Source: Alistipes sp. (GTDB lineage Bacteria; Bacteroidota; Bacteroidia; Bacteroidales; Rikenellaceae). Taken from it: a DNA stretch of 53,071 bases. The stretch covers positions 1 through 53,071 of the forward strand of contig JAFTVX010000022.1 of assembly GCA_017465575.1 (NCBI GenBank), read 5' to 3'. Positions 243 to 51,434 of this stretch are shown one piece after another. The notes beneath the pieces were generated by a model, which worked only from the letters and a program-made list of their open reading frames with translations, was not told the DNA's origin and made no database searches. A program made the translations under genes and the position numbers. The stretch's first letter is position 1. Each line of letters begins with the position of its first letter.

Positions 243-517
243 ACCTCCCAGTCAGCACTCTTTGTCGTCAAAAGTCGTGAGATGTGGTGCCAAATGAAAA
301 CTCCTCGGATGGGACATACTTGGCGTATTTCCCATTCGGGGAGTTAAGTTTGGTGCCGCAGATTGCGGCTTTTCACGGCAAAGACCCAATTTCTTGTCAG
401 AAGGGGTCAGGCTTGGCTCATCGCAAAAGTGAGTGCCTCGGGATAGTACACCTAAGTACAGCCCGAGGCACTCAACTTTGGGGATGGGTCGAGAATGACC
501 CCTTATCACAAGAAATT
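243..517 (-). repeat. nested palindromic repeat, copy A (two modules)
   Basis: Two tandem modules of one architecture. Module A1 has outer arms at 258-274 and 369-383 and an inner stem at 299-314 with 330-345. Module A2 has 22-bp outer arms at 388-409 and 496-517 (20 of 22 complementary) and a perfect 12-bp inner stem at 431-442 with 462-473, containing GTAC-N6-GTAC in its loop. About 275 bp are shared with copy B near 24.6-24.9 kb. The right end overlaps the first base of the reverse-strand stop triplet of the next gene. Confidence 0.85.
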
Positions 518-2980: not shown

Positions 2981-4267
2981 CTATTTCTTCACAAGTATTC
3001 GGTAGTTCCAGGGCGCTAAAATCTCATCAAAGTGCTCCTTTAACTCAAATCGTTCGCCAGTCAGGGCATCGCAGTAGTCGCCTGCATAGATGCCTGTATG
3101 GAAGTCGGCGTGGATGGTATAGGGCGAGAGGTTTACGATGGCAACAACACGGCTACCCTCGACCTCGCGCACAAGGCTAAACATACAATCCTTGGCATTG
3201 TTCTCAATCTCAATCATCTCGCCACCCTCGGCACCTGCCGCCAACGCTCGCTCGCTATGCTTCAAAGCAGCCAAACGACGATAAAGCTCCGTAGTGCGGC
3301 ACTCACGGTAGGCATCCACAGGAATGGGGTCGCGGTCGAAGAACTTAAACGAGTGGTTGTAGCCCACCTCCTGACCCGTATAGATAAGGGGCATTGTCGA
3401 GGGCATAAGGAATGTCATCACGGTCATCGCCTCCAACGAAGCACCAAACCTATCCTGCTCCGAGCCATTCCACGAGTTCTCGTCGTGGTTCGAGGTAAAG
3501 CTCATACGGATAGCCTCACGGGGGTACTTTGCGCGCTCCGAGTGGATAGCGTTGCGCATATCCCACACACGGCGAGCGCCCTTGGCGATATCGACCATAA
3601 TATGGTGGATGTTCCACTGGTAGCTGGCGTTGAAGGCATCGTTGAAGAGGTTATCCTCCTCGGCTTCGGCCAACATAAAAATATCGGGCTTAACGCGGTG
3701 CAACTCCCGAGATACCTCCTGCCAAAACTCGATAGGAACCAGCATCGCCATATCGCAACGGAAGCCATCGACATCGAACTCCTCGACCCAGTAGCGCATA
3801 GCATCTATCTCGCCGAGCCATACATCGTGGTTTGCGTAGTTGAGCTTTGCTGTGTCGGTCCAATCCCAAGGCACCTTCGCCACACCCTGCTCATCACGCT
3901 CATACCAATCTGCAGGGCGCTCCGTGAGCCAACGGGCATCGCGTGCCGTGTGGTTGGCCACCCAGTCGAGCAACACCTTCATACCGAGGGCGTGAGCCGC
4001 CTTGACGAAGGCACGGAAATCCTCCTCAGAGCCAAACTCGGGGTTAACGGCCTTGTAGTCCTTGATTGAGTAGTAAGAGCCAAGGCTACCCTTGCGCCCC
4101 TCCTCGCCAATGGGATAGATGGGCATCAGCCATATAGCATCGATGCCGATAGAGCGTAGGAATGGGAGTCGCTCGATGGCGGCACGAAATGAGCCTTCGG
4201 CGCTGAGTTGTCGTATGTTCATCTCGTAGAGCACCGCACTACGGCTCCACTCGGGGTTTGTGTACAT
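2981..4267 (-). CDS. cytoplasmic GH13 alpha-amylase family enzyme
   Basis: A 428-residue GH13 hydrolase without signal peptide or lipobox; the barrel begins within the first 15 residues, so it should be cytoplasmic. Conserved regions are DWVANH (101-106), GFRCD with nucleophile Asp172, LAEAE with acid/base Glu201, and SNHDEN with Asp262. A short C-terminal beta-domain follows (about 345-428). It is clearly paralogous to the next upstream gene, sharing near-identical stretches such as GSYYSI, DYKAVNPEFG and DWVANHT. That gene encodes a lipoprotein, so one family appears to serve two compartments. A hairpin with a T-rich tail separates the two genes, and no separate promoter is obvious, so it is probably expressed by readthrough. 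Likely role: degradation of imported malto-oligosaccharides. Confidence 0.9.
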   Translation of the reverse strand: MYTNPEWSRSAVLYEMNIRQLSAEGSFRAAIERLPFLRSIGIDAIWLMPIYPIGEEGRKGSLGSYYSIKDYKAVNPEFGSEEDFRAFVKAAHALGMKVLLDWVANHTARDARWLTERPADWYERDEQGVAKVPWDWTDTAKLNYANHDVWLGEIDAMRYWVEEFDVDGFRCDMAMLVPIEFWQEVSRELHRVKPDIFMLAEAEEDNLFNDAFNASYQWNIHHIMVDIAKGARRVWDMRNAIHSERAKYPREAIRMSFTSNHDENSWNGSEQDRFGASLEAMTVMTFLMPSTMPLIYTGQEVGYNHSFKFFDRDPIPVDAYRECRTTELYRRLAALKHSERALAAGAEGGEMIEIENNAKDCMFSLVREVEGSRVVAIVNLSPYTIHADFHTGIYAGDYCDALTGERFELKEHFDEILAPWNYRILVKK

Positions 4268-4343: not shown

Positions 4344-5744
4344 TTACTTCGCAAGAAGCATATACTGCCAAGGAGCAAGCTCAAGCTGCTCGCCAGTAAC
4401 GATGCTCTTTGTCTCGCCACAGATGCAGTTGTAGTCACCAGCAACAGCCTCGGTGAAGGTTACAACCTGAGGCTCAGCCGAGAAGTTGAACAAGCAGAAT
4501 ACCTTGTTCTCGTCGTTCTCGCGAGTGAAAGCCAAGACAGCCTCGGGAGCACCCTCAAGATATACCACGGGGGCTACATTAGCACCAGCAGCCAAAGCAG
4601 AGTTCTCGTGACGGAACGCACACAACGCCTTGTAGAAGTCGCGGTACTCCTTGCCGTACTCGGTGTCAACGAGCTCTACAACAGAGTCCTTCTCGAAGAA
4701 CTGCAAACGGCGACCAAGACCAATCTCCTGACCAGTGTAGATAAGGGGCTGACCCTTAGGCAACACGAAGGTAAGAGCAGCGAAGGTCTTGTGAGCATCA
4801 CCCATACGCTCCATCTCGGTACCTGCCCAAGAGTTCTCGTCGTGGTTCGAGGTGAACATAAGACGCATAGCGGGTGCAGGGTACTTCTCGTCATCGCGTG
4901 CGAGGTAGTCCTTCAAGTCCTGAACGGTCTTTGCATCGGTCTTGATAGTGCCATCGCCAGCAACATTCTTGGTCTCGCTACCGCCCTTAGCCATAGCGTT
5001 GAAGATGTGGTGGAGCTCCCAAGCGTAGGTGGCGTCGAAGTCGCTCTCGTGCAACCAAGTCTCCTCGCCCTCAGCCAAGAGGTATACATCGGGGTTGATA
5101 GCGCGAACCTCCTCCCACGCCTTCTTCCAGAAGTCGCCAGGAACATTCATCGCTACATCGCAACGGTAGCCATCTACACCCTTCTCAATCCAGAACTTGA
5201 GGGCATCGAGCATAGCGGCACGCATATCCTCGTTCTTGTAGTCGAGCTTTGCGATATCGGTCCAGTCGTACTCTACGATAGGAAGACCAGTAGCCTCGTC
5301 CAAAACATACCAATCCTTCTTGCCCTCTTTCCACCAGTTAGCATCGCGTGAGGTGTGGTTAGCAACCCAGTCGATGATAACCTTCAAGCCGAGGTCGTGA
5401 GCCGTAGCAAGGAACTTATCGAAGTCCTCCATAGTACCGAACTCGGGGTTTACGGCCTTGTAGTCGATAATCGAGTAGTATGAGCCAAGAGTACCCTTAC
5501 GGCCATCTACGCCGATGGGGCTGATGGGCATAAGCCATACGATATCAACGCCCATATCCTTCAACACGGGGAGGTAAGCCTCTGCAGCAGCAAAGGTACC
5601 CTCCTCGGTAGCCTGACGAATGTTGAGCTCGTAAACTACTGAATTGTACTTGTCAAATGCGGGGCTCTCAGCCACCTTCTCGGTGTTGCCTGCGCAACCT
5701 ACCAATGTTGCAACGAGTGCAACCAAAGCAAATAGTCTCTTCAT
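4344..5744 (-). CDS. GH13 alpha-amylase family lipoprotein
   Basis: A 466-residue GH13 enzyme with a lipoprotein signal (residues 1-17, lipobox Leu-Val-Gly-Cys17), so anchored in a membrane, probably the outer one. GH13 regions: DWVANH (125-130), GYRCD with nucleophile Asp196, LLAEGE with Glu225, and SNHDEN with Asp302. The barrel carries a modest insertion around 255-285 relative to its cytoplasmic paralogue. A C-terminal beta-domain spans about 380-466. The residues after Cys17 (Ala-Gly-Asn-Thr-Glu) are not strongly acidic, so surface display is uncertain. It stands 17 nt after the larger GH13 lipoprotein gene, in the same operon. Probable role: starch or maltodextrin hydrolysis at the cell envelope. 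Confidence 0.92.
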   Translation of the reverse strand: MKRLFALVALVATLVGCAGNTEKVAESPAFDKYNSVVYELNIRQATEEGTFAAAEAYLPVLKDMGVDIVWLMPISPIGVDGRKGTLGSYYSIIDYKAVNPEFGTMEDFDKFLATAHDLGLKVIIDWVANHTSRDANWWKEGKKDWYVLDEATGLPIVEYDWTDIAKLDYKNEDMRAAMLDALKFWIEKGVDGYRCDVAMNVPGDFWKKAWEEVRAINPDVYLLAEGEETWLHESDFDATYAWELHHIFNAMAKGGSETKNVAGDGTIKTDAKTVQDLKDYLARDDEKYPAPAMRLMFTSNHDENSWAGTEMERMGDAHKTFAALTFVLPKGQPLIYTGQEIGLGRRLQFFEKDSVVELVDTEYGKEYRDFYKALCAFRHENSALAAGANVAPVVYLEGAPEAVLAFTRENDENKVFCLFNFSAEPQVVTFTEAVAGDYNCICGETKSIVTGEQLELAPWQYMLLAK

Positions 5745-24440: not shown

Positions 24441-24570
24441 TAATGAGCAATGAGCAATGAGCAGAGTGCAGAGAGATTTTCTAAGATGATAGGACAAGTA
24501 AGACGATAAGACGATAAGACGACAAGAAAGAATCTTACGGTCTTATAGTCCTAAGGTCTTAATGGTCTTT
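24441..24570. repeat. composite 7-bp and 8-bp tandem arrays
   Basis: Heptamers CAATGAG (24441-24473) are followed by octamers TAAGACGA (about 24500-24525). A short AAGAAAGAATC spacer comes next, then octamers related to GGTCTTAN (about 24533-24570). In reverse complement this two-part order matches the arrays near 35.7 and 46.4 kb. The stretch 24384-24851 contains no gene. Confidence 0.75.
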
Positions 24571-24578
24571 GGCTACTT

Positions 24579-24853
24579 ACCTCCCAATCAGCACTCTTTG
24601 TCGTCAAAAGTCGTGAGATGTGGTGCCAAATGCGAACTCCTCGGATGGAACATACTTAAGCGTATTTCCCATTCGGGGAGTTAAGTTTGGTGCCACAGAT
24701 TGCGGCTTTTCACGGCAAAGAACCCAATTTGTTGTCAAAAGGGGTTAGGCTTGGTCTATCGCAAAAATCCCGACGATGGGCTGTACTTGGCGTACTGCTC
24801 ATTGTCGGGACTTTTTGGGATGGGCCGAGAATGACCCCTTTTCACAACAAATT
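24579..24853 (-). repeat. nested palindromic repeat, copy B (two modules)
   Basis: Module B1: outer arms 24594-24610 and 24706-24720, inner stem 24635-24649 with 24667-24682. Module B2: 22-bp outer arms 24726-24747 and 24832-24853 (20 of 22 complementary), inner stem 24768-24781 with 24797-24810 (12 of 14, both exceptions G-U compatible). The inner stem of B2 is unrelated in sequence to that of A2, while arms and loop core are conserved. Its right end merges with the stop codon of the transglycosylase gene. Confidence 0.85.
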
Positions 24854-25559
24854 ACGATGCTATGCGGCAGTATTGGTTATATTTACGCATAACCTGCGAC
24901 ACATAACCCAAGGTCTGCTTGCTGCCGGTAAACTTACCACTCTTGACGATGTCAAGCTCGTAGTAGGCGGGATCGGCCTTAAGCTGTAGGTAGCGGCTAA
25001 CATCGCCCCATGAGTTGGGGTTGGCACCTTCGGCTCGCGCAAGGCGACGAGCATCGAGCACATGGCCGATACCAGCATTATAGCTTGCGAGGATAATGCT
25101 TAGGCGGTCCTCCGTAGGCGTTGCTGCGGGGATGCGAAGCATGTCGGCAAGCTCGGTAAGGAGCATACCGGCGAGACGAATATTTGTCTCGGTATCGTCG
25201 ATATCATCGACAGGAACATTGAAGTGGCGAGCCACAACGGGGCGTATCTGCATAATGCCCGAAGCACCCTGACTCGACACGAGGTCCTCAATAAAGCGCG
25301 ACTCGCTATAAGCGATGGCACTCATCAAACGCCAATCCTGACCCTCCTCCTCGCCGACACGCTGCATAATGGGGTCGAAACGCGAGATTACCCACTCCTC
25401 GACCGTCTCGGCGGGGGTGGCAACGGGTGTGGGTGCTACCTCCTCTACAATAGGCTCCGCCTCGGGGAGCGCAACGGGGGTAGTGGCGTTACCCACTGAT
25501 GATTCATAAATCGCAAGAGCTGCGACAGAAAGAATCACAAACGATACTCTTCTTAACAT
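24852..25559 (-). CDS. membrane-anchored lytic transglycosylase (SLT domain)
   Basis: A 235-residue enzyme cleaving peptidoglycan between MurNAc and GlcNAc in the periplasm. The N-terminal hydrophobic stretch (5-18) acts as signal or anchor, followed by a Pro/Glu/Val-rich linker (28-52). The SLT domain has catalytic Glu86 in AYSESRF, GASGIMQIRP at 98-107, and ILASYNAGIGHVLDARRLA near 155-173. It is about the size of a stand-alone SLT domain, like the C-terminal half of MltF. It is the last gene of the pssA-porin-transglycosylase run; repeat element B supplies the sequence after its stop. Confidence 0.92.
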   Translation of the reverse strand: MLRRVSFVILSVAALAIYESSVGNATTPVALPEAEPIVEEVAPTPVATPAETVEEWVISRFDPIMQRVGEEEGQDWRLMSAIAYSESRFIEDLVSSQGASGIMQIRPVVARHFNVPVDDIDDTETNIRLAGMLLTELADMLRIPAATPTEDRLSIILASYNAGIGHVLDARRLARAEGANPNSWGDVSRYLQLKADPAYYELDIVKSGKFTGSKQTLGYVSQVMRKYNQYCRIAS

Positions 25560-35647: not shown

Positions 35648-35794
35648 TAATGAGAAATGAGAAATGAGAAATTAGCAATAATAGTTTTTCGTTGTTAGAG
35701 TTTTAAGATCATAAGACCTTAGGACTTTAAGACCTTAGGATTTTTCTCCTATCGTCATATCGTCATAATCGTCTTATCGTCTTATCGTCTTAAT
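35648..35794. repeat. composite array: three heptamer/octamer families in series
   Basis: In order: heptamers AAATGAG; heptamers TTTTTCG, TTGTTAG; octamers GACCTTAG/GACTTTAA (about 35716-35740); a TTTTTCTCC spacer; and octamers TTATCGTC (about 35750-35790). The last two blocks match those near 46.37-46.44 kb in the same order and orientation. Confidence 0.75.
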
Positions 35795-36573: not shown

Positions 36574-36603
36574 GCAGGCGTTTCGCCTGCGGGCTAACGC
36601 CCC
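36574..36603. repeat. GCAGGCG...CGCCTGC and GGGCTAACGCCC palindromes
   Basis: GCAGGCGTTTCGCCTGC (36574-36590) is followed by GGGCTAACGCCCC (36591-36603). Both cores occur in the cluster at 116-202, in inverted arrangement, which makes this a second locus of the same constant-flank palindrome family. It abuts repeat copy C. Confidence 0.6.
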
Positions 36604-36712
36604 AATTTGGATTATCGCAAAAGAATCCCCCCAAGGGATAGCACTAAATAGTACAGTCCTTGGGGGATTGCTTTTGGGATAGTTCGAAGGATACCCCTTT
36701 TCACAACAAATT
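36601..36712 (-). repeat. nested palindromic repeat, copy C (left arm truncated)
   Basis: The inner stem AATCCCCCCAAGG (36624-36636) pairs with CCTTGGGGGATT (36658-36669) with one bulged C. The loop keeps the AGTAC-type core. The right outer arm (36692-36712) is intact and runs into the stop codon of the next gene. Of the left outer arm only CCCAATTT remains. Confidence 0.8.
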
Positions 36713-37619
36713 ACTCCCAGAGGTTGCGAGGATACTCACCCGCCTCGATCAACTCTTCGAGCTTTGCCATAAGCTGTGGCTTGTCCTCCTTGTAGGTTAC
36801 GCCAAACCACTTGGCGGTAGTCGACAACACACGCATTGTGGCGGTGCCCTCGGTGATAACCTTATTTACCATAAGGGGGATAAAGAACTCCGACTTAAGG
36901 TTGTCGATATTGGCTGCGAGGAACTCCTTGAAGAATGCCTCAGAGTGGCGGAAGTAGTCGGGAGTGAAGCCAAAGAGGTTCATCGACACGGGGGTATTCT
37001 CCTCCAAGGGCTGGGGGTCGCCAAGGTCGTGGAAGACGATAGTGCCATCAACACGCTCAATCTTGGTGCGCTCAACCATACCCTCGAGGTTGCCCTCCGA
37101 GTTCACGGTGCAGACACCACGCGACACTGTGCCATTCTCCGACAAGGTCTTCGATACCTCGTAGCCTACCATACAGTACTTGCCCTCCGAGCCAGCAAGC
37201 TCCGAGAGGTACTTGCCGATAACGGCATAGCCATCACGGCCGTAGAAGTCGTCGGCATTGATAACGGCAAAGGGCTCGTTGATAACATCGGCAGCCATCA
37301 TCACTGCGTGGTTCGTTCCCCAAGGCTTAACACGGTCGGCGGGGAGAGTGAAGCCCTCGGGGAGCTTGTCGAGCTCCTGGAAAACATACTCCACCTCGAT
37401 ACGACCACCGAAGCGCTCCTTGTTGAATACCTCGCAGAAATCCTCTGCAAACGAGTGGCGAATAACGAATACCACCTTGCCAAAGCCGGCACGGATAGCG
37501 TCGTAAACCGAGTAGTCGATGATAGCCTCGCCGTTAGGGCCTACGCCATCCATCTGCTTGAGCGAGCCATAGCGTGAGCCCATACCCGCTGCCAAAACCA
37601 AAAGTGTAGGTTTTACCAT
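36711..37619 (-). CDS. sugar-phosphate nucleotidyltransferase family protein
   Basis: A 302-residue cytoplasmic NTP-transferase with the N-terminal signature LVLAAGMGSRYGSLKQM (residues 6-22), where Arg and Lys bind the nucleotide phosphates. ADDFYG near 121-126 is the metal-binding region. It resembles bacterial glucose-1-phosphate or related uridylyl/cytidylyltransferases but lacks features that fix the substrate. A good promoter lies upstream (37693-37662). Its stop codon is shared with the end of repeat copy C. Confidence 0.85.
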   Translation of the reverse strand: MVKPTLLVLAAGMGSRYGSLKQMDGVGPNGEAIIDYSVYDAIRAGFGKVVFVIRHSFAEDFCEVFNKERFGGRIEVEYVFQELDKLPEGFTLPADRVKPWGTNHAVMMAADVINEPFAVINADDFYGRDGYAVIGKYLSELAGSEGKYCMVGYEVSKTLSENGTVSRGVCTVNSEGNLEGMVERTKIERVDGTIVFHDLGDPQPLEENTPVSMNLFGFTPDYFRHSEAFFKEFLAANIDNLKSEFFIPLMVNKVITEGTATMRVLSTTAKWFGVTYKEDKPQLMAKLEELIEAGEYPRNLWE

Positions 37620-46346: not shown

Positions 46347-46367
46347 AGTTTTTCAATTTATTTTTTT

Positions 46368-46477
46368 GACCTTATGACCGTAGGACCTTAAGACCTTAGG
46401 ATTTTCTCTTATCGTCTTATCGTCTTACTTGTCTTATCGTTTAAAAAAATCTCTTTGCTCTTTGCTCTTTGCTCTTG
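46368..46477. repeat. composite 8-bp arrays plus CTTTGCT heptamers
   Basis: Octamers GACCTTAT, GACCGTAG, GACCTTAA, GACCTTAG are followed by a TTTTCTC spacer and octamers TTATCGTC (to 46440). Heptamers CTTTGCT follow at 46451-46477. The first two blocks duplicate those near 35.72-35.79 kb. Confidence 0.75.
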
Positions 46478-49042: not shown

Positions 49043-49455
49043 TGGTCGACGAGCGCATAACGCGATTTATCGCTAAGCACCATGTGCTCACCCTTGCTAC
49101 CGTAGGCGAGAGTGGTGAGGCGTGGGTTGCCAACTGCTTCTATGCCTACGACCGTAAGCGCAACCTCTTTATCTTCACCTCGGACAGCGCTACACGCCAC
49201 GGCTCAGAGATGTCTTTCAACTCGAGGGTAGCCCTCTCTGTTGTTCGTGAGACACGCATCGTGGGGTGTGTTCAGGGTGCGCAGATAGTGGGCAATGCCC
49301 GCCCTGCCGATGACGAGGCACATAAGGCATATATCAAGCGTTTCCCCTATGCCGTAGTCGCTCCCCTCACCCTTTGGATGGTCGAGCCAACGCATATAAA
49401 ATTTACTGATAACACTCTTGGATTTGGTAAGAAATTAATATGGAAGGTTCTATAA
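49042..49455 (+). CDS. pyridoxamine 5'-phosphate oxidase-like flavin-binding protein (YhbP-type)
   Basis: A 137-residue protein with the split-barrel FMN-binding fold. It opens RITRFIAKHHVLTLATVGESGEAWVANCFYAYD, as in the YhbP/UPF0306 group of the PPOX-like superfamily, and ends DNTLGFGKKLIW, the usual family end. No biochemical role is established for the group that I can name. Its ATG is on the last base of the M23 stop codon. An AT-rich stretch with an orphan reading frame follows. Confidence 0.85.
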   Translation: MVDERITRFIAKHHVLTLATVGESGEAWVANCFYAYDRKRNLFIFTSDSATRHGSEMSFNSRVALSVVRETRIVGCVQGAQIVGNARPADDEAHKAYIKRFPYAVVAPLTLWMVEPTHIKFTDNTLGFGKKLIWKVL

Positions 49456-49657
49456 ATTAGGTCGAGTTGATTTTGAAGATTATTGTGAGGAGATTTCTAA
49501 TTTCTTCCGAAAGCGCAATACGAGTATTGTAACTGAGGAAAAATTAGAAATATACCACAATAAATTCAAAAGCGACCGAAATAGAATCTTGGGACAACGA
49601 ATAACTCATTTACTAATTTATAGAACATTCCATTTATGGCAAAGAGAGGAGTTATAA
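49439..49657 (+). pseudogene. AT-rich orphan reading frame, possible gene remnant
   Basis: A 72-codon frame without an ATG runs between two stop codons, overlapping the end of the flavin-protein gene and the first 22 nt of ispD. Its translation is protein-like and charged, for example VDFEDYCEEISNFFRKRN and RITHLLIYRTFHLW. The DNA here is far richer in A and T than the genes on either side. It may be the tail of a lost or transferred gene; I recognise no family. Chance openness is possible. Confidence 0.35.
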
Positions 49658-50310: not shown

Positions 50311-50413
50311 GATTATCGCAAAAGAATCCCCCAAGGGCGGTACAAAGTAGTACAACCCTTGGGGGATCTTTTTTGGGGATATGCGGAACGGCGCCCCCTT
50401 ATCACAAGAAATT
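50311..50413 (-). repeat. nested palindromic repeat, copy D (left arm lost)
   Basis: A perfect 12-bp inner stem ATCCCCCAAGGG (50326-50337) pairs with CCCTTGGGGGAT (50356-50367) around GGTAC-N6-GTAC. An A-rich run precedes and a six-T run follows, so it can terminate transcription from both the convergent ispD and thiL genes. The right outer arm runs into the thiL stop codon; the left outer arm is missing. Confidence 0.8.
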
Positions 50414-51434
50414 ACCTGTCAAAGGCTTGTGCTTTTAGGGCTATACCTTCGCCATCGGGGGTAACGAGTATTACGCCACTCTCCTCCTTCGTGATATGTC
50501 CTATGACATCCACAAGTCCGAGGCGCATCACCGCCTCCTGCTTGTCGAGGGGCACGGTGAAGAGTAGTTCGTGGTCCTCGCCACCGTTGAGTGCTGCAAT
50601 CACAGGGTCGATATGCATCTCTTCGGCCAACTCCGATGTCTGGCGTGCAATAGGTATGCGCTCAAGGTAGATGCGCGCACCACACTGCGACGAACGACAC
50701 AACTGCCTAAGGTCGCTTGCCAAGCCGTCCGAGAGGTCTATCATCGCCGTGGGGCGTATACCCTCCTCACGCAACGCATCCAGCACATTGACCCTTGCTC
50801 GGGGCTTAAGGTAGCGCTCCAAGAGATATTCGTAGCCCTCGAACTTGGGCTCGGGGTTGTCGATATCCTTCAGCACACGCTTCTCGCGCTCCAAGAGGTG
50901 CAAGCCCATATACGCTGCACCGAGGTTCGAGGTTATACATATTAAATCGTGCTCGTGCGCGCCCGCGCGATAGACAACATCCTCCTTGCGGGCAAAGCCC
51001 ACCGCCGAGATATTTATCACAAGACCATTCATCGAGGCTGTGGTGTCGCCACCCACGATATCTACGCCCAACTCCTTGGCAGCCGTCTCCATACCCTCAT
51101 AAAGGGTGTCGAGTGCCTCTACCGAAATCTTCGCCGACACGCCGAGCGACACTACCAACTGCTCGGGCTTACCGTTCATCGCAAGGATATCGTTTACACC
51201 ACGCACAACGGACTTATAGCCCAAGTGCTTAAGCGGGAAGTAGCTCAGGTCGAAGTCGATGCCCTCGGTGAGCATATCTGTTGTTAGGAGCATCACCCTG
51301 TCGCCAAGGTCTATTACTGCGGCATCATCGCCCGCACCGTGGAGTGTCGAGGCATTGCGACGACCAAGACCCTTTGTAAGGCGGTCGATAAGACCAAACT
51401 CGCCCAATGAGGCAATCTCTGTACTCTTTGACAT
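50412..51434 (-). CDS. thiL: thiamine-monophosphate kinase
   Basis: A 340-residue cytoplasmic kinase making thiamine diphosphate from thiamine phosphate and ATP. Family motifs: GDDAAVID near 35-42, TDMLTEGIDFDL near 52-63, VGGDTTASMNGLVINI near 126-141, and ATAMIDLSDGLASDLRQLC near 226-245. Length is normal. Its promoter overlaps that of adk in a divergent arrangement. The stop codon is shared with repeat copy D. Confidence 0.96.
   Translation of the reverse strand: MSKSTEIASLGEFGLIDRLTKGLGRRNASTLHGAGDDAAVIDLGDRVMLLTTDMLTEGIDFDLSYFPLKHLGYKSVVRGVNDILAMNGKPEQLVVSLGVSAKISVEALDTLYEGMETAAKELGVDIVGGDTTASMNGLVINISAVGFARKEDVVYRAGAHEHDLICITSNLGAAYMGLHLLEREKRVLKDIDNPEPKFEGYEYLLERYLKPRARVNVLDALREEGIRPTAMIDLSDGLASDLRQLCRSSQCGARIYLERIPIARQTSELAEEMHIDPVIAALNGGEDHELLFTVPLDKQEAVMRLGLVDVIGHITKEESGVILVTPDGEGIALKAQAFDR

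Follow-up and report, generated by a model that had tools for sequence, protein, structure and literature searches.

The window, that is, the whole 53,071-nt stretch of Alistipes sp. DNA analysed here, contains six palindromic modules at four loci, each locus adjoining the TAA stop codon of a minus-strand ORF. At the first locus, a complete module of layer type B with the inner stem GAGTGCCTCGGG (388..517) adjoins the stop of ORF 517-987. It is followed in tandem by a complete module of layer type A (258..383) and, after this last module, by a minus-strand tail (243..257) that is GTGCTGACTGGGAGGT-like in gene sense. The second locus is built in the same way, with a complete type B module carrying the inner stem TCCCGACGATGGGC (24726..24853) at the stop of ORF 24852-25559, a complete type A tandem follower (24594..24720) and a tail on the minus strand (24579..24593). 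The tail at 243..257 thus recurs at 24579-24593, as it does behind other copies, and tails that appear related by eye are found in other species. The remaining modules, 36601..36712 at the stop of ORF 36711-37619 and 50311..50413 at the stop of ORF 50412-51434, are both truncated on the gene-distal side. All six are assigned to the minus strand as the strand of the adjoining gene; they fold more stably on the plus strand, the one opposite to the four adjoining genes.

The coordinates given for all six modules in the initial annotation proved correct, and the inner stems named there are present, each pairing with its own complement. The statement that the six share their outer arms holds for the four complete modules, which form two tandem pairs, and fails for 36601-36712 and 50311-50413, which lack the gene-distal arm. 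Nor is the outer frame constant, as had been proposed, since the outer triplet covaries too. In gene sense (minus strand), the folding z-scores were -10.4 and -10.2 for the complete B modules, -5.3 and -5.8 for the complete A modules and -3.2 and -5.6 for the truncated modules. For each of the six, none of 200 shuffles folded as well as the real module. The annotation knew of no named family that fits, and in agreement with this an Rfam search of the window gave no match at the gathering threshold; positions 240-525 gave sub-threshold miRNA models only. A separate pair of 216-nt stretches, 75% alike, lies at 3936-4151 and 5341-5556 inside neighbouring large minus-strand ORFs.

BLAST with 243-517 returned 65 matches in the 1.95-Mb genome, with both strands and partial matches counted. 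We parsed 42 distinct modules and used 37 of them for the alignment and covariance model, leaving out five near-duplicates. On the same genome the model gave 150 rows, which is the number of candidates scored; 6 of these were second strands, corresponding to ~144 module places. A covariance model, as suggested in the annotation, therefore finds many more copies than six, and their stems pair. Presence in the genus is patchy: the model matched 41 of 61 genomes drawn from it and gave no match in the other 20. In the sample of the order (n=198) it found this genome and one weak match. When named genome contigs were scanned with the core pattern GGGCTGTAC-N(3-7)-GTACTATCCC, at least 114 stretches were obtained; among the matches listed, 72 of 80 core stretches were from Alistipes sp. 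or Rikenellaceae, many of them from ruminant guts. Among 395 genomes of the phylum, many core matches (41) occurred in the present genome only, with one each in 3 others. These three Bacteroidota genomes were considered as carriers of the family and rejected as background, because a reversed control pattern gives single matches in 8 genomes. One module used as query had no match among plasmids and phages, and the core pattern had none in viral_contigs, upon which carriage by a phage or plasmid was dropped.

Each module is a nested hairpin of ~130 nt. In gene sense it begins with TAATTT-NNN-GTGA-W-AAG, followed by the middle layer, the inner stem and a loop closed by GTAC or ATAC, and returns to CTT-Y-TGAC-N'N'N'-AAATT. 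RNAalifold predicted 34 pairs in gene sense, 21 with two-sided changes (-24.4 kcal/mol), and 49 pairs on the opposite strand, 32 with two-sided changes (-75.0 kcal/mol). Many of the 49 predicted base pairs have thus been kept through changes on both sides. Scored on the gene-sense structure, the 37 modules have 95.4% of cells paired (shuffles, 73.4%) and a covariation score of 0.525 (shuffles, 0.146). None of 500 shuffles reached 0.525; counts of this kind are inflated by the relatedness of the copies. Slid structures scored at most 0.099.

The outer triplets, in the tally as read, pair fully in 35 of 37 modules when G-U is allowed. Stronger evidence than these counts comes from 11 of 666 module pairs, in which the inner ~112 columns are at least 93% identical and the outer triplets differ on both arms. 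Neither a simple core swap nor one conversion tract spanning the core can produce this pattern; pairing-dependent selection and arm-templated correction both can. The earlier description of a swap-prone core is too narrow, since the outer, middle and inner layers all vary. Copying of the outer arms from the local landing site was considered and rejected, the same arm, TTTTCGATTAT, being present at another gene (position 81714 of C27, a 231.8-kb contig of the same genome).

The strand opposite to the gene gave the better fold in 42 of 42 modules of this genome, in 79 of 79 modules of other loci (3 of the 79 being from this genome) and in 62 of 69 cores analyzed with fixed flanks in contigs named Alistipes or Rikenellaceae, with the gene-sense fold better in 7 of the 69; because the copies share descent, these counts are not independent trials. 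The sign of the bias was the same with RNA and single-stranded DNA energy sets. The opposite strand is favoured because A-C positions of the gene sense become G-U (or G-T) pairs there.

On C27, each of the 21 model matches lies behind its nearest called ORF and is oriented like it, a count resting on crude longest-ORF gene calls. The next ORF after the module is convergent in 12 cases and on the same strand in 9; none of the modules lies between divergent ORFs. C27 and the window together contain 27 modules, of which 6 were classed as cluster followers and 21 as cluster-first. Eighteen of the cluster-first modules have, at a distance of 0-11 nt, the stop of an ORF with 124 codons or more, compared with 150 of 4000 random positions (ORFs of at least 60 codons). 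All 18 abutted stops are TAA, stops overall being TAA in 138, TAG in 50 and TGA in 15 cases. The cluster-first modules at positions 686, 93333 and 188468 of C27 have no abutting stop. A second test covered 72 stretches named Alistipes or Rikenellaceae, which contain 69 core matches. In 52 of the 69, an ORF with 80 codons or more stops on the same strand 30-80 nt ahead of the core, as against 153 of 3000 random positions. The distance from stop to core was exactly 55 nt in 22 of these 52, and the stops were TAA in 44, TAG in 4 and TGA in 4. An ORF stop was on the other side in 7 of the 69, and 16 were near an ORF end on neither side. The 34 core stretches outside the title listing contain 28 cores, with a same-strand stop in 21 and a better fold on the opposite strand in 27. 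Thus, the family sits at operon 3' ends in a fixed orientation, mostly starting at a TAA stop.

This position raises the matter of transcription termination, for which rplI allows a comparison (29 of 30 loci parsed). Behind rplI, a GTAC/ATAC-type core lies 54-59 nt from the stop in 11 of the 29 loci; of the remaining 18, 17 show an ordinary hairpin and T-tract and one is cut by a contig end. A hairpin-plus-T rule was passed by 6 of the 11 rplI cores and not by 5. Where the inner stem ends, T occupies on average 5.6 of 11 positions in gene sense and 4.8 on the opposite strand. In two stretches of the window, simple terminator scans gave partial sites at 36625-36639 and 329-343 (2 of the 4 modules there), with totals no higher than in shuffles, and several of the distant cores described below have, by eye, no clear T-tract. 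Modules thus stand in the place of the terminator at rplI, which supports, and does not prove, the suggestion that they take over its role. Note that transcription ending at the inner hairpin would yield no RNA with both outer arms, so that termination and an RNA role of the arms fit poorly together.

We compared the genome with that of a sister species, G075, whose genes are mostly 88-95% identical and whose gene order is largely collinear. In G075 stretches not chosen for modules, a module was present in both genomes at 7 of 8 comparable stops, and none of these 7 pairs was identical over the 46 nt shown. A nearly identical module exists in both genomes at locus L014, which a frame filter left out of the count of eight. 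At loci chosen with the model, the stop is kept, the modules are usually different and so is the spacer behind them. The G075 ortholog of position 142708 on C27 also carries a module. The one comparable G075 stop lacking a module (the ortholog of L018) has a different palindromic element. Right-end module remnants exist, for example at L014, and among the compared sites we found no filled/empty module pair that would show target duplication. Thus, in the one sister species compared, the occupied stops are mostly the same but the modules differ.

Other repeats were seen in these comparisons. The element that takes the module's place at the L018 ortholog, on contig C18 of G075, belongs to a second palindromic family, GGCTGAATAAAAAG ... 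CTTTTTATTCAGCC, seen also at ~85.9-86.3 kb of C18 and in the flank of L027; away from that stop, a hairpin resembling a module is nested within it. Degenerate low-complexity repeats with units of 8-10 bp (for example GACCATTA/GGACCTTA and TTTAGGGAG), often forming long palindromes, lie at 24442-24562, 35649-35792 and 46362-46427 of the window; such repeats stand behind many modules and differ between the sister species. At L016 (1631-1834), a tail, a low-complexity palindrome and a right-end module remnant are repeated in tandem, so the exchanged unit may exceed the module. A MITE-like element with the arms ATGGAAGGTTCTATAAATTAG / CTAATTTATAGAACATTCCAT is located at 49440-49633 of the window. 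Similar copies near 156600 and 161000 of C27 are absent at the matching places of G075, forming clean filled/empty pairs.

Among the matches listed, 8 core stretches outside Rikenellaceae traced to five genomes, with record names of Desulfovibrionales, Deltaproteobacteria, Proteobacteria, Spirochaetaceae and Chitinophagaceae. The pattern CTGTAC-N(3-8)-GTACTATCC gave 17 matches in these genomes and its reversed control none; 8 of the 17 had served to select the genomes and nine are new. In the four genomes other than that of Chitinophagaceae, an ORF stop lies 47-76 nt before the core in 11 of 12 loci, the twelfth being at a contig edge. These 11 stops (10 TAG, 1 TAA) are at or a few nt from the hairpin foot, and the polarity is the same as in Alistipes. 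In the Chitinophagaceae genome (5 loci), the gene is on the other side in 2 and there is no abutting ORF in 3. The strand opposite to the core folds better at 17 of 17 distant loci. The Alistipes model R1 matched 14 of the 17, with a best E-value of 5.4e-4 and the rest from 0.014 to 0.83. Matches this weak leave common descent with the Alistipes modules unproven, and the distant cores may be true relatives, look-alikes or the result of MAG misbinning.

Several known systems resemble the modules in part. REPs of the GTAG type are 20-40 bp palindromes with an unpaired GTAG foot and, as far as the account in PMC3733652 goes, they and their BIMEs are likewise intergenic palindromes, grouped in arrays, between co-directional or convergent genes; their ends can supply a TAG stop, comparable to the modules at stops (PMC3733652). 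The modules differ in being ~130 nt long, in lacking a GTAG end and in the absence of the Y1_Tnp (PF01797) profile from all 61 genus genomes (matches in 5 of 14 control rings). Mobilisation of the RAYT/IS200 type in Alistipes was rejected on this ground; in the five distant genomes, Y1_Tnp is absent from G258-G261 and present in G262. REPs of the CGTC type are described as short, with an unpaired CGTC at one end, a 4-5 nt loop and mostly a CCA-like tail (PMC3733652). They resemble the modules in that this account knows of no dedicated transposase and in their spread, which includes Bacteroidetes, Spirochaetes and other phyla (PMC3733652), and differ from them in their ends, which are TTT-NNN-GTGA / TGAC-NNN-AAA in the modules.

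ERIC/IRU elements are 127 bp long with TA ends, a long stem-loop and an orientation-dependent effect; unlike the modules they are enterobacterial, and their description in the relevant part of PMC2229807 contains neither concentric exchange nor stop anchoring. Rickettsia palindromic elements (RPE) are also long stem-loops, of 105-146 bp (PMC2229807). RPE are known for in-frame insertion inside genes, whereas the modules sit after stops. Like the modules, the attC site of integrons is a hairpin at the 3' end of a gene with its bottom strand folded. Its R boxes are GTTRRRY / RYYYAAC, which by eye the Alistipes ends do not fit, and as a further difference the genes of the sister genomes remain largely collinear. 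One Spirochaetaceae locus, L338, does fit the R boxes, which we take as chance. The family was absent from the libraries and literature searched and looks undescribed.

Beyond the observed family, its structure, favoured strand, place and difference between sister species, we infer termination, single-strand recognition and mobility. We tentatively favour the reading, which we regard as quite possible rather than probable, that the modules belong to a structured, non-autonomous DNA element present in many copies, which colonises the ends of operons, is renewed over existing copies and doubles as a terminator. The opposite strand would be recognised as a folded single strand, either DNA or RNA, and the recognising factor would copy modules into or over existing ones. 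In gene sense, the inner GTAC-loop hairpin and a T-rich tract may end transcription of the upstream gene, and hosts may tolerate or keep the element at stops because it has replaced the native terminator; both of these steps have partial support. Selection on structure and mobile palindromes with exchangeable parts, the two readings offered initially, both gain support from the copies and their paired stems.

The modules may instead be host-owned 3'-UTR or terminator structures that are passed on vertically and made alike by gene conversion or hairpin-templated correction in the absence of transposition, a doubtful explanation that nevertheless deserves serious weight. The sites shared with G075 (7 of 8) are also compatible with plain vertical inheritance, and the terminator position at rplI and the occurrence of one module type at several G075 sites point the same way. 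Against this stand the patchy presence (no match in 20 of the 61 genus genomes), the two-armed differences in the outer triplets around an unchanged middle and the similar cores in other phyla. Moreover, conversion by RecA would call for longer matching ends.

It appears unlikely that the family belongs to a cross-phylum mobile class with a folded-strand GTAC-N-GTAC apex, which would be gene-polar, land at stops, renew its arms on both sides and use an unrecognised enzyme type. Such a class would be defined by an internal folded strand, with no reliance on terminal repeats.

Improbable, too, is a classical MITE with terminal repeats, a DDE transposase and a TA target supplying the stop codon. 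The left end reads TA|ATTT, in line with 18 of 18 module stops being TAA, and long stem-loops are described for bacterial MITEs that measure 100-200 bp and end in TA (PMC2229807). The left TA of the modules is regular; however, AAATTA on the right is present in part of the copies only, the right flank often being without TA. The module ends are paired but of several sequences. Conservation lies in the interior and variation between types at the ends, which looks opposite to the pattern of a MITE. In addition, 553 kb (C27 and the window, and C18, C29 and C22 of G075) contained no convincing longer element with module ends, only a few loose end pairings within 3 kb that by eye are not module-like.

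We consider it very improbable that the modules encode an antisense regulatory RNA, as might be proposed from the favoured opposite strand with its many G-U pairs. In two window stretches, an E. coli-type promoter consensus revealed no signal above chance, with 16 matches versus 15.8 in shuffles and 6 versus 2.3; one 9-of-12 match lies ~90 nt before 36601 on the plus strand. The strand bias is alike with same-strand neighbours (mean -12.7 kcal/mol, n=9) and convergent neighbours (mean -13.8 kcal/mol, n=11; the C27 fragment at 686 left out), and the neighbour's transcript therefore does not explain the favoured strand. Retroposed copies primed at TAA are hardly credible: both truncations in the window are on the gene-distal side, as such copying would have it, but right-end remnants occur too (L014), RVT_1, present in 20 of the 61 genus genomes, matched neither this genome nor any of G075, G072, G017 and G067, and retrotransposition at TAA was rejected for its absence from this genome.

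In conclusion, a structured and exchangeable repeat stands at the ends of many genes in a common gut genus; it differs from one sister species to the other, while the genes stay put. The family documents naturally occurring changes on both sides of a folded strand and makes its function testable. With no RAYT and no RVT_1 reverse transcriptase found, one must ask what moves the modules or renews them. If the modules terminate transcription, they would represent the takeover of a host control signal by a repeat element, at many genes.
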